From: Burkholderiales bacterium
GTDB lineage: Bacteria > Pseudomonadota > Gammaproteobacteria > Burkholderiales > Burkholderiaceae_C
Assembly: GCA_017307865.1 (NCBI GenBank)
Contig: JAFKGE010000015.1
Location: 62,001 to 126,000, forward strand
Reading direction: 5' to 3'
DNA length: 64,000 nt
Made by a program: the position numbers and the translations under genes. The notes under the pieces were generated by a model. The model saw only the letters and a program-made list of their open reading frames with translations, made no database searches and was not told the origin of the DNA. Positions 10,524 to 64,000 of this stretch are shown piece after piece. How positions within the stretch are numbered: the first letter of the stretch is position 1; every line of letters begins with the position of its first letter.

Positions 10524-10591
10524 CTATGAAGTTGATAGCTGGTCGCGCTTGCTGGACAAGCGCTGCGGGTGTTTTTGACCAATAAACTCAA
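10524..10591 (+). repeat. R1 repeat copy a (intergenic)
   Basis: This copy of the ~60-bp dispersed palindromic repeat has the core stem GCGCTTG-CTGGA-CAAGCGC. It fills the gap between the acyl-CoA dehydrogenase and receptor genes, and its distal end reaches the dehydrogenase stop codon. Confidence 0.75.
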
Positions 10592-12291
10592 GACCAGTCG
10601 GCCGGCAGCTCCACCGCCTGCAGCGGATCGCGCGGCAGCACGCGGTGGGCAATCACCAGCTGCGACAGGCGAAGGCGTTCGGCGGAACCGGTCTTGCGCG
10701 CCTCCCAGGCCATGGCAATCGCCGTGGTGCAGTTGTAGAGCGCGGTGGCGGCCTGGCGCACCGCCTTTTCGCCGTCATCCTGCACGGCGCGCTCGGCCAG
10801 CTTCGCGGCGCGCGCCAGCGCGTCGGTGAGCGCCTGGCGATAGGCCGGGGTGATGCCCTGGGTGTCGGCCAGCAGGCCCAGCAGATGGCTTTGCAGCACC
10901 GGCAGCGAGCCCTCGCGCTTGATGGCGCGCTTGACGTCCAGCGCCACGATGTTGCTGGTGCCTTCCCAGATCGAGCCCAGGTGCGCATCGCGCACCAGGC
11001 GCGGGTCGGCCCATTCCTCGATGTAGCCGCAGCCGCCGCGCACCTCCATGGCGTCGCCCGTCACCTTGCGGGCGTCGCGGCAGGCGCGGAACTTGATCAG
11101 CGGCGTGAGGATGCGCAGCAGCGCATAAGCCGTCGCGTCGCCGGCGTCAGAGCGCGTCAGCGTGGCCGCGGTCTGGAACACCATGGTGCGCGCCTGCTCG
11201 GCCGGCACGCGCAGCTTGTCCAGCTGCACCTGCATCAGCGGCAGGTCTTGCAGGCGGTGCTTGAAGGCCCAGCGTTCGCGGGCGATGAACTCGGCCTCGG
11301 CCACGGCGCGGCGCATCATGCCGGCGGCGCGCATGCCGTTGGACAGGCGCGAGTTGTTCACCATGTCGGCGATCTGCACGAAGCCCCGGCCCTGCTCGCC
11401 CACCAGATACGCCACGGCGCCCTCCATGCGGATCTCGCCGCTGGCCATGGAGCGCGTGCCCATCTTGTCCTTCAGGCGCACGATGTGGTAGTGGTTGGTG
11501 TTGCCGTCGTCCAGCTGGCGCGGCAGCAGAAAAAGCGAGATGCCCTTCATGCCGGGCGGCCCACCGTCGACGCGCGCCAGCACCATGCCAAAGCCCGCGT
11601 CGGGGTTGGAGCAAAACCACTTCTCGCCCACCAGGCGCCAGCTGCCGTCATCCTGCGGGTAGGCCATGGTCAGGGTGCCCGCGATGTCCGAGCCCGCGGC
11701 CTGCTCGGTCATGAACATGGAGCCCTGCACGCTGGAGTCGAAATCCATGGACAGCAGCGTGGGCAGGTACTTGGCGACCAGCTTTTCGTCACCGTATTTC
11801 TTCAGCGTGCGCGTGAGCGAATCGGACATCGACAGCGGGCAGCACAGGCCGAACTCGGACTGCACGAACAGATAGGTCAGCGCGTACTTGACGATGGCCG
11901 GCAGCTTGCCCTTCCAGCCCAGCATGTCCTCGCGGTGCGAAATCGCCGCCAGCCCGAACTGCTGGAAGGCGATTTTTTCCATCTCGATGTAGGCCGGATG
12001 CTTGACGATGCGCTGCTCTTCCCGGCCGCTGCGGCTGCGCATCTGCAGGGTGGGCGGGTTGTGGTCGGCCTCCAGCGCCCAGTCGTCCACCACGCCGCCG
12101 GCCAGCTCGCCCATGCGCTCGAAGTACGGCTGCAGGTGGGCGTACAGGTCGGCCGGCAGGTACAAGGCCAGCAGCTGCTGCAGCTCTTTGTCTTCCCGGT
12201 AGTTGTTGACGTGGCCACGGTCGGGCACCGGGTGCGCGGCGGCACTGGCCTGGGCCAGGGCGGACATCTGGGAGGAGTCGTTGGCGGACAT
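10588..12291 (-). CDS. Acyl-CoA dehydrogenase (AidB/isovaleryl-type)
   Basis: The ATG at 12291 follows a CAGGAGA site and gives 567 residues. Acyl-CoA dehydrogenase signatures are present: SMFMTEQAAGSDIAGTLTMA, RLVGEKWFCSNPDAGFGMVLARV, KDKMGTRSMASGEIRMEGAVAYLVGEQGRGF and RDAHLGSIWEGTSNIVALDV. The extended N- and C-terminal parts and the length resemble the AidB branch. It should be an FAD-dependent cytosolic oxidase of a CoA ester passing electrons to ETF. It is first in the operon with receptor and CoA-transferase, and LysR is divergent. An alkylation-response role like E. coli AidB is possible but not favoured by context. Confidence 0.88.
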   Translation of the reverse strand: MSANDSSQMSALAQASAAAHPVPDRGHVNNYREDKELQQLLALYLPADLYAHLQPYFERMGELAGGVVDDWALEADHNPPTLQMRSRSGREEQRIVKHPAYIEMEKIAFQQFGLAAISHREDMLGWKGKLPAIVKYALTYLFVQSEFGLCCPLSMSDSLTRTLKKYGDEKLVAKYLPTLLSMDFDSSVQGSMFMTEQAAGSDIAGTLTMAYPQDDGSWRLVGEKWFCSNPDAGFGMVLARVDGGPPGMKGISLFLLPRQLDDGNTNHYHIVRLKDKMGTRSMASGEIRMEGAVAYLVGEQGRGFVQIADMVNNSRLSNGMRAAGMMRRAVAEAEFIARERWAFKHRLQDLPLMQVQLDKLRVPAEQARTMVFQTAATLTRSDAGDATAYALLRILTPLIKFRACRDARKVTGDAMEVRGGCGYIEEWADPRLVRDAHLGSIWEGTSNIVALDVKRAIKREGSLPVLQSHLLGLLADTQGITPAYRQALTDALARAAKLAERAVQDDGEKAVRQAATALYNCTTAIAMAWEARKTGSAERLRLSQLVIAHRVLPRDPLQAVELPADWS

Positions 12292-12393
12292 GCGGGTCTC
12301 CTGATTGGTGGTGCTGGCCCCATTGGATTCCGCTCGATCATTCGTGTCCAATATCAATAAAATCTTTCTCCATAGGATTTGCGAATAGCCACC
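12292..12393. promoter_or_regulatory. Divergent control region, dehydrogenase operon / LysR
   Basis: This 102-bp AT-richer gap separates the two divergent starts. It holds several overlapping dyads of the ATTG/CAAT type and a TAAAAT hexamer on the + strand. It is the likely binding site of the adjacent LysR protein, although no single clear T-N11-A box stands out. Confidence 0.45.
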
Positions 12394-13314
12394 ATGGAAC
12401 TGCGCCTGCTGCACTACTTCGTGACCCTGGCCGAGGAGCTGCACTTCGGCCGCGCGGCGCAGCGCCTGTTCATCTCGCAGCCGCCGCTGTCGGTGGCCAT
12501 CAAACAGCTGGAGGACGAGCTGCAGGCACAGCTGTTCGAGCGCAGCAGCAAGGGCGTGCGCCTGACGGCCGCCGGCGAGCACCTGCTGGAGCGCGCGCGC
12601 CAGCTGCTGGCGCTCAGCCGCCAGGCGGCGCAGGAGACGCAGGACGTGGCCCAGGGCACGCGCGGCCATCTGCGGCTGGGCTTTGTCGGCTCCAGCCTGT
12701 ACCGCGGCCTGCCGCAGGCGCTGGCGCTGCTGCAGCAAAGCCACCCCCAGGTGCGCGTCGACCTGCTGGAAGCCAACAGCGCCGAGCAGGTGCTGGGCCT
12801 GCAGCAGCTGCGGCTGGACGTGGCGCTGGTGCATTCCACCCTGCCGCCCGAGGGCATCGCCAGCCAGCTGATCGTGGACGAGCCATTCGTCGCCTGCCTG
12901 CCGCAGGGCCACCGCCTGCGGCGTGCCGCCGACGTGGACCTGGCCGACCTGAAGCGCGACCGCCTGATCCTGTTTTCCAGCCTGGTGTCACCCACCTACC
13001 ACCAGCGCATCTACGAGATGTGCCTGGCGCACGGCTTCGCGCCCGAGGTGCGGCACGAGGTGCGCCACTGGCTGTCGGTGCTGTCGATGGTGTCGCTGGG
13101 CCTGGGCGTGGCACTGGTGCCGGCGGCGCTGCAGCGCGTGGGCCTGCCGCATCTGGCCTTCAAGCCGCTGCGCGGCGCGCACCCGGCGTCCGAAATGCTG
13201 GCCATGTGGCGCCGCGAACCCGACAACCCCCTGGTGCGCGCGCTGCTGCACTATCTGCAGCAGGAGGCGCTGAAGCTGGATCAGGCCGTCAAGACCTCGA
13301 GACCGTCCAGATAG
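12394..13314 (+). CDS. LysR-family regulator
   Basis: The 306-residue regulator begins [43 protein letters not shown], a standard LysR DNA-binding domain, followed by the effector domain ([23 protein letters not shown]). The [20 protein letters not shown] segment fits the CatM/BenM-like group. I chose the ATG at 12394; a TTG start 15 bp upstream is possible. It is divergent from the acyl-CoA dehydrogenase operon, which it probably controls. Its 3' end overlaps the convergent serS gene by 34 bp. Confidence 0.9.
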
Positions 13315-63003: not shown

Positions 63004-63009
63004 CACAAT
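63004..63009 (+). promoter_or_regulatory. nnr -10, near-leaderless start predicted
   Basis: CACAAT, with CTGACG 18 bp upstream, predicts +1 three bases before the nnr ATG at 63019. No Shine-Dalgarno is present. Confidence 0.45.
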
Positions 63010-63018
63010 GGCTGCGCC

Positions 63019-64000
63019 ATGCCCACCCTGGTTCGCAGCACGCACCCGCTGGCGCTGCACGACAGCGCCGCCACCCGCCGCATCGAGCACGCCGCGGCCA
63101 GCGCCCTGCCCCCGCACACCCTGATGCAGCGCGCCGGCCTGGCCACCGCGCGCCTGGCGCTGGCGCTGGCGCCGCACGCGCGCCGCGTCTGGATCGCCGC
63201 CGGCCCCGGCAACAACGGCGGCGACGGGCTGGAAGCGGCTGTGCACCTGTACGCCTGGGGCCTGAACCCCGTCGTCACCTGGCTGGGCAGGTCCGACACG
63301 GCGCCACCCGATGCGCGCGCCTCGTGGCAGCGCGCCGTGCAGGCCGGCGTGACCTTGGCCGAGCAGCCGCCGGCCGACCTGGGCCCGCAGGACCTGGCCA
63401 TCGACGCGCTGCTGGGCATCGGCGCCACGCGCGCGCCCGGCGGCCGCATGGCCGACTGGCTGCGGCGCCTGCACGCCGGCCCCGCGCCCGTGCTGGCGGT
63501 CGATGTGCCCACCGGGCTGAATACCGACACAGGCTGGATGCGGACGCCGGAAACTACTGAAATAATAGCTGCCCGCGCTGATTCAGCAAGCGCTGCAGGC
63601 CAATTTGGCTTGAAGCCGTTGCCACCGCCACACCACACCCTGAGCCTGCTCACGCTCAAGCCCGGCCTGTTCACCGCCCACGGCCGCGACGCGAGCGGCG
63701 CGATCTGGTTCGACGACCTGGGCCTGCCCGCCACCCTGCGCGACGCCGAGGCGCCCAGCGCCTGGCTGAACGCCGCGCCCACCGCCGCGCCGCGCCCGCA
63801 CGCCAGCCACAAGGGCAGCTTCGGCGACGTCGCCATCGTCGGCGGCGAGGGCCTGGCCGCGCGCGGCCTGGGCATGACCGGCGCCGCCCTGCTGGCCGCC
63901 AGCGCCGCGCTGCACGGGGGCGCCGGCCGCGTGCTGCTCAGCCTGCTGGACGATGGCCAAATGACCCACATCGCCAGCCAGCCCGAGCTGATGCTGCGCC
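63019..64000 (+). CDS. nnr: Bifunctional NAD(P)H-hydrate epimerase/dehydratase, partial, with in-frame R1 repeat
   Basis: The gene runs past the right edge; about 327 codons are visible. The epimerase half shows RRIEHAAASALPPHTLMQRAGLATARLAL, AGPGNNGGDGLEAAVHLYAWG and LAVDVPTGLNTDTGW, followed by the start of the kinase-like dehydratase half (HKGSFGDVAIVGGEGL). It repairs hydrated NAD(P)H. Residues about 178-199 (TTEIIAARADSASAAGQF) come from an R1 repeat, read forwards, placed in the epimerase C-terminal part before LSLLTLKPGLFTAHGR. Confidence 0.9.
   Translation, partial: MPTLVRSTHPLALHDSAATRRIEHAAASALPPHTLMQRAGLATARLALALAPHARRVWIAAGPGNNGGDGLEAAVHLYAWGLNPVVTWLGRSDTAPPDARASWQRAVQAGVTLAEQPPADLGPQDLAIDALLGIGATRAPGGRMADWLRRLHAGPAPVLAVDVPTGLNTDTGWMRTPETTEIIAARADSASAAGQFGLKPLPPPHHTLSLLTLKPGLFTAHGRDASGAIWFDDLGLPATLRDAEAPSAWLNAAPTAAPRPHASHKGSFGDVAIVGGEGLAARGLGMTGAALLAASAALHGGAGRVLLSLLDDGQMTHIASQPELMLR
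63550..63615 (+). repeat. R1 repeat copy l, inside nnr
   Basis: This is a clear copy: ACTACTGAAATAATAGCTGC, then CCGCGCTGATTCAGCAAGCGC and the dyad GCCAATTTGGC. The gene reads it in its forward orientation, unlike the copies in the leftward genes. Confidence 0.85.

Follow-up and report, generated by a model that had tools for sequence, protein, structure and literature searches.

In-gene copies of a high-copy 63-nt DNA motif of a Burkholderiales bacterium lie mostly in place, and the motif may resemble an uptake signal

How does a short repeat come to lie in frame inside the genes of conserved proteins? The question is raised by a 64,000-nt stretch of a Burkholderiales bacterium (the window: GenBank assembly GCA_017307865.1, contig JAFKGE010000015.1, positions 62,001 to 126,000 of the forward strand), in which a sequence-only reading had noticed twelve related palindromic segments, six of them inside genes, and had likened them to the Rickettsia palindromic elements (RPEs) that insert in frame. 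The 63-nt repeat family is here named R1, and the 3.9-Mb source genome of the window is called the own genome. Inside genes, R1 copies are very probably length-neutral in origin for the most part, and R1 is tentatively read as a genome-wide maintained 63-nt DNA recognition motif, most like an uptake signal, a function that we infer from its pattern.

R1 is a real family, far above chance. Its conserved stretch covers 63 nt (-12 to +50 relative to ATAGCT) with an own-genome consensus of about ACTATnaAaTtnATAGCTGCTcGCGCTTGnTngaCgnGCGCtanAGcCcnaTTTgactnnaAA, that is, ATAG (sometimes GTAG or GGAG) followed by an imperfect palindrome whose pairing is not conserved. The exact core ATAGCTNNNNGCGCTTG, in which 13 bases are fixed, was counted 228 times in the own genome and its reversed pattern not once, which bears out the expectation of a high-copy family. 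In 444 kb of own DNA (the window plus 380 kb) the R1 profile gives 75 matches, 72 after removal of overlaps, and none in the same DNA reversed; 57 copies are strong (E < 1e-5), and the genome total is extrapolated to roughly 500 to 640. No profile match at E < 0.05 is found in 400 kb of G306, a core-free genome of the same family. The information content, computed on profile-selected copies, is about 64 bits over 63 nt. Eleven of the twelve window segments match the profile (E <= 4.5e-4); eight of these belonged to its training set, and the copies at 37558, 50116 and 56437 are independent of it. The twelfth segment (16295..16360, + strand), R1-like by eye, has no match even at E <= 1 and lies in the loop of another inverted repeat with arms at about 16226-16285 and 16361-16410.

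The six host genes were named correctly: Pfam and NCBIfam give a DEAD-box helicase, DUF4149, a SpoU methylase, LpxB, DXP reductoisomerase and YjeF_N/nnr, and the reading frame stays open through the R1 copy in all six (genes were called by a codon-score script of our own rather than by a published gene finder). In-frame insertion, proposed by analogy with RPEs, holds for nnr, which has about 20 extra residues at the copy, but not for lpxB (47652-48860, -; copy 48178..48240, +, E 1.3e-10), dxr (55515-56711, -; weak copy 56437..56499, +, E 1.1e-4), the SpoU-type RNA methyltransferase gene (46141-46926, -; copy 46694..46756, +, E 6.2e-12) or the DUF4149 gene (39327-39752, -; copy 39502..39564, +, E 1.6e-14). 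In these four, motif-free orthologues also have the residues in question, at equal length, the outcome that the sequence-only reading had itself named in advance as speaking against insertion. The orthologue sets comprised 20 genomes for lpxB (no gaps relative to the motif-free ones), 19 for the methyltransferase (0 to 3 gaps over the gene), 17 spanning the segment for dxr and 8 for the DUF4149 gene, whose motif-free orthologues are of equal length (one differs by 4 bases) and whose Pfam match takes up 98 residues for 97 profile positions. Protein length across the segment is the same in motif-free genomes, including G304 and G306 (0 cores) at lpxB, methyltransferase and dxr, save that the methyltransferase of these two has one residue more. 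Measured flank to flank against motif-free targets, 96 in-gene pairs, not counting those with over 40 bases unaligned at either edge, differ by 0 in 74 cases and by +3 in 11, over a range of -22 to +20 with none near -63; the pairs are not independent because they are drawn from five orthologous genes.

The same pattern extends beyond the window. Among the 17 strong in-gene copies, 12 are length-neutral, three are insertion-like, one is ambiguous and one is untestable, so that most strong in-gene copies, unlike RPEs, are not extra in-frame segments absent from orthologues. The length-neutral copies lie in DUF4149, methyltransferase, LpxB, RsmB, MutS, RmlD, TilS, a carboxyltransferase, a PRK11239-family protein, an amidase, PhzF and a DAO-type oxidoreductase. 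Against solved homologues, the segment is gap-free in LpxB (5w8s), RsmB (2yxl, Fmu protein) and also in Dxr (1q0h), and has gaps of one residue in MutS (7ou2), two in RmlD (1kbz) and four to six in TilS (1ni5 and 3a2k). Differences from family profiles, which are net values that could hide compensating changes, are +4 for the carboxyltransferase, +1 for the PRK11239-family protein, the amidase and PhzF, and -2 for the oxidoreductase. The ambiguous case is a putative aminopeptidase (+11 against its family profile), for which, as for CobQ, no PDB match was found. Not counted among the 17 are the weaker in-gene copies of the own genome (E >= 1e-5): the profile difference is 0 for Dxr and methylmalonyl-CoA mutase, +5 for MurE and -14 for acyl-CoA dehydrogenase, and IleS, an AccC-like protein and other weak copies lie outside the length tally. 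The insertion reading is thus mostly wrong, because most strong in-gene copies leave protein length normal.

Three copies do look like insertions: those in nnr, CobQ and a LytTR response regulator. The window's nnr (63019-64632, extending beyond the window end; copy 63553..63615, +, E 9.6e-14) has 33 residues in the linker from DTG to HTL vs 9 to 16 in 14 orthologues that lack a copy at this place, and is 24 residues longer than its family profile; six other orthologues without a profile match have linkers of at least 22 residues and may hold faded copies. In CobQ (+30 to +34 relative to family profiles) and the LytTR regulator (+25) the copy lies at or in an interdomain linker. The DEAD-box helicase copy (gene 26153-27745, -; copy 26225..26287, +, E 2e-13) occupies about residues 486-507 of an unconserved C-terminal tail, past the end of the Pfam domains at residue 420, where orthologue comparison cannot judge insertion.

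In-gene copies mostly occupy existing coding positions whose codons are bent towards the motif. In the motif carriers of four genes, the fraction of A/T at third positions is 0.44 to 0.58 inside the motif vs 0.09 to 0.12 in the rest of the gene; the corresponding values in motif-free orthologues are 0.24 to 0.35 vs 0.16 to 0.24. The motif is kept at orthologous in-gene positions across genera, and its strength is graded. A position-specific score was derived from 40 copies in spacers and 60 from other genomes. With 3-nt shifts allowed, orthologous spots form a continuum from 66 to -74, the null maximum over 79,752 G306 windows being -8.8, and genomes that score high at one of three genes tend to score high at the other two as well (Spearman 0.76 to 0.79, n = 18-20). 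G305, which has no exact core, scores -11.4, -5.1, 1.2 and -3.1 at the four genes, which reads as a possible fading of R1. Scores for dxr and methyltransferase of G306 and G304 lie below the null 99.9 percentile.

Other sites, namely spacers and a few flexible linkers, have instead grown by about 63 bases. Although called genes make up 92% of the sequence, 40 of the 57 strong copies lie between genes and 17 inside; of the spacer copies, 34 lie between codirectional genes, 5 in convergent gaps and 1 in a divergent gap (1/40 vs 48/222 among gaps of at least 40 bp), and 32 of 44 neighbouring 3' gene ends overlap an R1 copy or lie within 25 bases of one. In 63 spacer comparisons with motif-free targets, the length difference falls between -80 and -45 in 33, between -44 and -11 in 3, within 10 of zero in 10, above +10 in 16 and below -80 in 1; the tally leaves out L099 8109 and L098 11656 (7 rows), methyltransferase orthologues with a failed gene call. 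The window's faded copy at 50116..50178 (+, E 4.5e-4) lies in a 59-base spacer that appears to have gained about 63 bases: ten genomes with the motif have 55 to 61 bases here, five of six outgroups have -4 and the remaining one has 20, and three same-genus genomes without a match have 43, 63 and 154. The spacer after dxr has 96 bases in G314, with a copy, vs 30 to 33 in five relatives, and -4 to 344 in other genomes; the genes around these two spacers are presumably lpxD, fabZ and rseP, judging by gene order. Whole-unit gains are found in spacers and flexible linkers; gain therefore occurs where length is free.

The remaining window copies are of the spacer kind or lie at gene ends. Two lie between genes, at 10523..10585 (+, E 5.2e-12) and at 14636..14698 (-, E 1e-14), the latter the strongest of the window; one at 24555..24617 (-, E 1.8e-12) overlaps a gene 3' end by 10 bases, and one at 37558..37620 (+, E 5.6e-8) overlaps the 5' end of a called gene. 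A second repeat family, with inverted arms like GAACGCAGAGGACGCAAAGGA, was seen in the window at 16226-16285/16361-16410, 26090-26148 and 34188-34301, and at about 384-570 of locus L062; it has several own-genome copies, and some of its loops hold R1 or R1-like sequence. A third repeat, of the CTCCCTCTCCC...GGGAGAGGG type, stands in genome G458 just after the nnr R1 copy (+102 bases, L135 at about 13105-13700) and in another spacer of that genome (L116, about 7777).

The three dyads that the segments had been said to share are present in the consensus, but as structures they did not hold up: partner positions show no covariation in 57 or 120 copies, and a recount on profile-found copies again gave none, so a conserved hairpin was rejected. 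A covariance model of R1 has only 3 pairs, because pairing covariation is lacking, and works as a sequence profile. Both strands nevertheless fold better than shuffled sequences (mean z -1.9 and -1.6). What R1 does have are discrete alternatives, AA or GG at positions 23-24 and TTT or AAA at 39-41, which, occurring without pairing covariation, suit protein recognition. In a larger in-gene set, 15 of 26 copies share one frame, which is mostly stop-free and encodes an amphipathic-looking peptide, K...A...QA..AI..IV.

R1 occurs in some bacteria of the Acidovorax and Ottowia group, and its presence in related genera is sporadic. At least one core occurs in 36 of 150 genomes of the family and at least ten in 19, with a maximum of 421; within a single genus, three genomes hold 228, 421 and 16 cores. 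Across the order, a core turns up in 17 of 300 genomes, four of them in the family and 13 outside with one match each, as the control pattern has. A strict 24-mer gave 15 named loci (seven in an Ottowia metagenome-assembled genome (MAG), three in Acidovorax, three in Burkholderiales bacteria, one in a "Rubrivivax" MAG and one in a Pseudomonadota bacterium), and 100 kb from each of four further genomes of four genera, the window's own among them, held 14 to 32 profile matches, with none in the reversed control. One 72-nt query matched 0 of 50,697 phage records and 2 of 72,556 plasmid records, totals that span all hosts. An R1-like copy under annotated cobN on Diaphorobacter plasmid NZ_CP049911.1 (107813-107867) is perhaps another in-gene case. 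A 391-kb gap in G303 that had seemed R1-free was an artefact of one sub-pattern, with profile matches inside it; a stretch of the same genome sampled at 2.18 Mb, mobile-island-like judging from its open reading frames, has no R1 profile matches.

Among known systems, DNA uptake sequences (DUS, Neisseriaceae) and uptake signal sequences (USS, Pasteurellaceae) resemble R1 most, with hundreds of copies in both orientations, in core genes and spacers and inside coding sequence, as described in passages of two papers (PMC2397512, PMC2346458). R1 likewise occurs far above chance and holds in-place coding copies, including some in core genes. According to the same passages, Neisseria DUS show a core-genome bias, an origin by recombination and gaps opposite many DUS (PMC2397512) as well as an orientation bias in genes (PMC2346458), and DUS/USS are absent from recently acquired DNA (PMC2397512, PMC2346458). 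The sequences differ, and R1 is not known to bias uptake. If R1 were an uptake signal, a competence receptor would prefer R1-bearing DNA, a molecular drive of the uptake-signal kind; R1-bearing alleles would return by transformation, and motif-improving substitutions and R1-carrying insertions would then spread alike, until a lineage lost the preference and its copies faded. Both kinds of change are called for: length-neutral copies in conserved proteins make a plain insertion element insufficient, and whole-unit gains make a pure point-mutation origin insufficient.

Several observations weigh against reading R1 as an uptake signal. ComEC, in 144 of 150 family genomes including all 19 with at least ten cores, is too widespread to separate copy-rich genomes and was rejected as a discriminating gene. 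In G302 (37 cores) ComEC matched in three pieces (G302:C1:1836740-1837544), possibly a pseudogene or an assembly error. Known uptake signals measure roughly 9-12 bases; R1 is much longer and richer, and its length and information speak against a simple equation with DUS. Several copies seem to have arrived as complete units of about 63 bp, for which copying is simpler than point mutation, and relatedness of the genomes alone could produce the score agreement between genes. The identical-codon fraction inside vs outside the segment is 0.63/0.71 in the methyltransferase, 0.66/0.69 in lpxB and 0.70/0.69 in DUF4149, clearly higher inside only in dxr (0.80 vs 0.67). Antisense copies prevail among the 17 strong ones in genes (12 to 5, p 0.14) and copies between codirectional genes are oriented 22 to 12 (p 0.12), neither of them significant. 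The R1 consensus is also nearly the same in four genera, with no marked dialects, whereas part of the literature describes DUS dialects for Neisseriaceae (PMC3630211).

R1 could instead be a binding site on the chromosome for a protein of the nucleoid, of repair or of segregation, maintained at many places by ordinary selection, which we consider somewhat unlikely; copies in genes would then have arisen by selected substitutions and those in spacers by duplication. Such a site would agree with the in-place origin, with a strength that is graded across the genome, with the A-tract alternatives and with the lack of pairing covariation, as well as with the avoidance of divergent gaps by spacer copies. 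Its sporadic presence within one genus would be odd for an essential site, and strands are mixed along two complete genomes (judged by eye), on which ground a replichore strand bias was rejected.

About equally doubtful is a mobile element of the repetitive extragenic palindromic (REP), miniature inverted-repeat transposable element or RPE type, with a 63-bp insertion unit and in-gene copies arising by gene conversion of partly similar coding sequence. The spacer gains of about 63 bp and the extra residues of nnr, CobQ and the LytTR regulator speak for it, as do the better-than-shuffled folding of both strands and the ATAG before an imperfect GC-rich palindrome, which recalls tagged REPs. RPEs, too, are found in frame within genes, where they code for a recurring peptide, according to a passage of one paper (PMC10969869), and the three insertion-like R1 copies recall them, but RPEs are about 150 bp long vs 63 for R1, and R1 has no conserved pairing. 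REPs with their associated tyrosine transposases (RAYTs), GTAG-tagged REPs in particular, resemble R1 in copy number, in the tetranucleotide before an imperfect palindrome and in lying mostly in spacers; R1 differs in having 17 of 57 strong copies in genes, mostly length-neutral, and no link to Y1_Tnp. A RAYT transposase, which the sequence-only reading had advised looking for, was rejected as the driver: the own genome's single Y1_Tnp gene has no R1 copy in its 3.3-kb locus, and across 150 genomes Y1_Tnp presence shows no significant association with copy number (17 of 19 copy-rich genomes vs 95 of 131 others, p 0.16), a direct search finding none in copy-rich G389 and G433. Conversion would require sequences that already resemble R1, and dxr and methyltransferase of G306 and G304 do not. 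On contig C1 of G314, the genome with 421 cores, 20 Y1_Tnp matches were seen, four full-length with near-identical scores, which suggests an expanding IS200-like element.

A role of R1 at the RNA level in operon spacers, for instance in termination or transcript stability, with in-gene copies as by-products, is improbable. The predominance of copies between codirectional genes and near 3' gene ends would suit this role; copies of both orientations relative to transcription, mostly antisense copies in genes, the lack of covariation and an Rfam scan of the window in which only a tRNA reaches threshold do not, and length-neutral copies deep inside coding sequence would be left unexplained. Chance resemblance of GC-rich coding sequence can practically be set aside, for although several in-gene matches are weak (E near 0.001-0.01), the reversed own DNA and the core-free genome gave none, which rules it out for strong copies, and orthologous positions retain the motif across genera.

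The sequence-only reading knew of no such family in Comamonadaceae, and we found none either: among open-licence papers on palindromic elements in Comamonadaceae or Acidovorax, on uptake sequences in Comamonadaceae and on REP/RAYT in Burkholderiales, the searches made yielded no description of R1, and six core variants do not occur in the open-licence paper texts searched. Verminephrobacter eiseniae is a member of the Comamonadaceae. Its high-copy palindromic repeat VeiPR1, compared here by description only, is called unique to that species, at 2.3% of the genome, in part of its source (PMC3975124), and a word search in the text of a GTAG-REP survey found none of five Comamonadaceae genera (PMC3733652). 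VeiPR1 is the one lead left.

As R1 shows, a repeat can lie in frame within genes without having been inserted there. It is possible, though on balance doubtful, that a subset of Comamonadaceae-type Burkholderiaceae has an uptake-signal system of its own, with a composite 63-nt signal several times the known length that would shape codons and residues of MutS, LpxB, Dxr and RsmB in place and would fade when a lineage drops the signal. To our knowledge, the debate on uptake sequences rests on two bacterial families. Drive, selection and recombination are competing accounts of their origin, as part of the literature sets out (PMC2397512). If the uptake-signal reading is true, R1 would be an independent third case, with a far longer motif that some close genomes have, some have in faded form and some lack, and the question could be put to a direct test; should R1 instead be a binding site on the chromosome, it would be a large and hitherto unknown class of sites that constrain conserved proteins.

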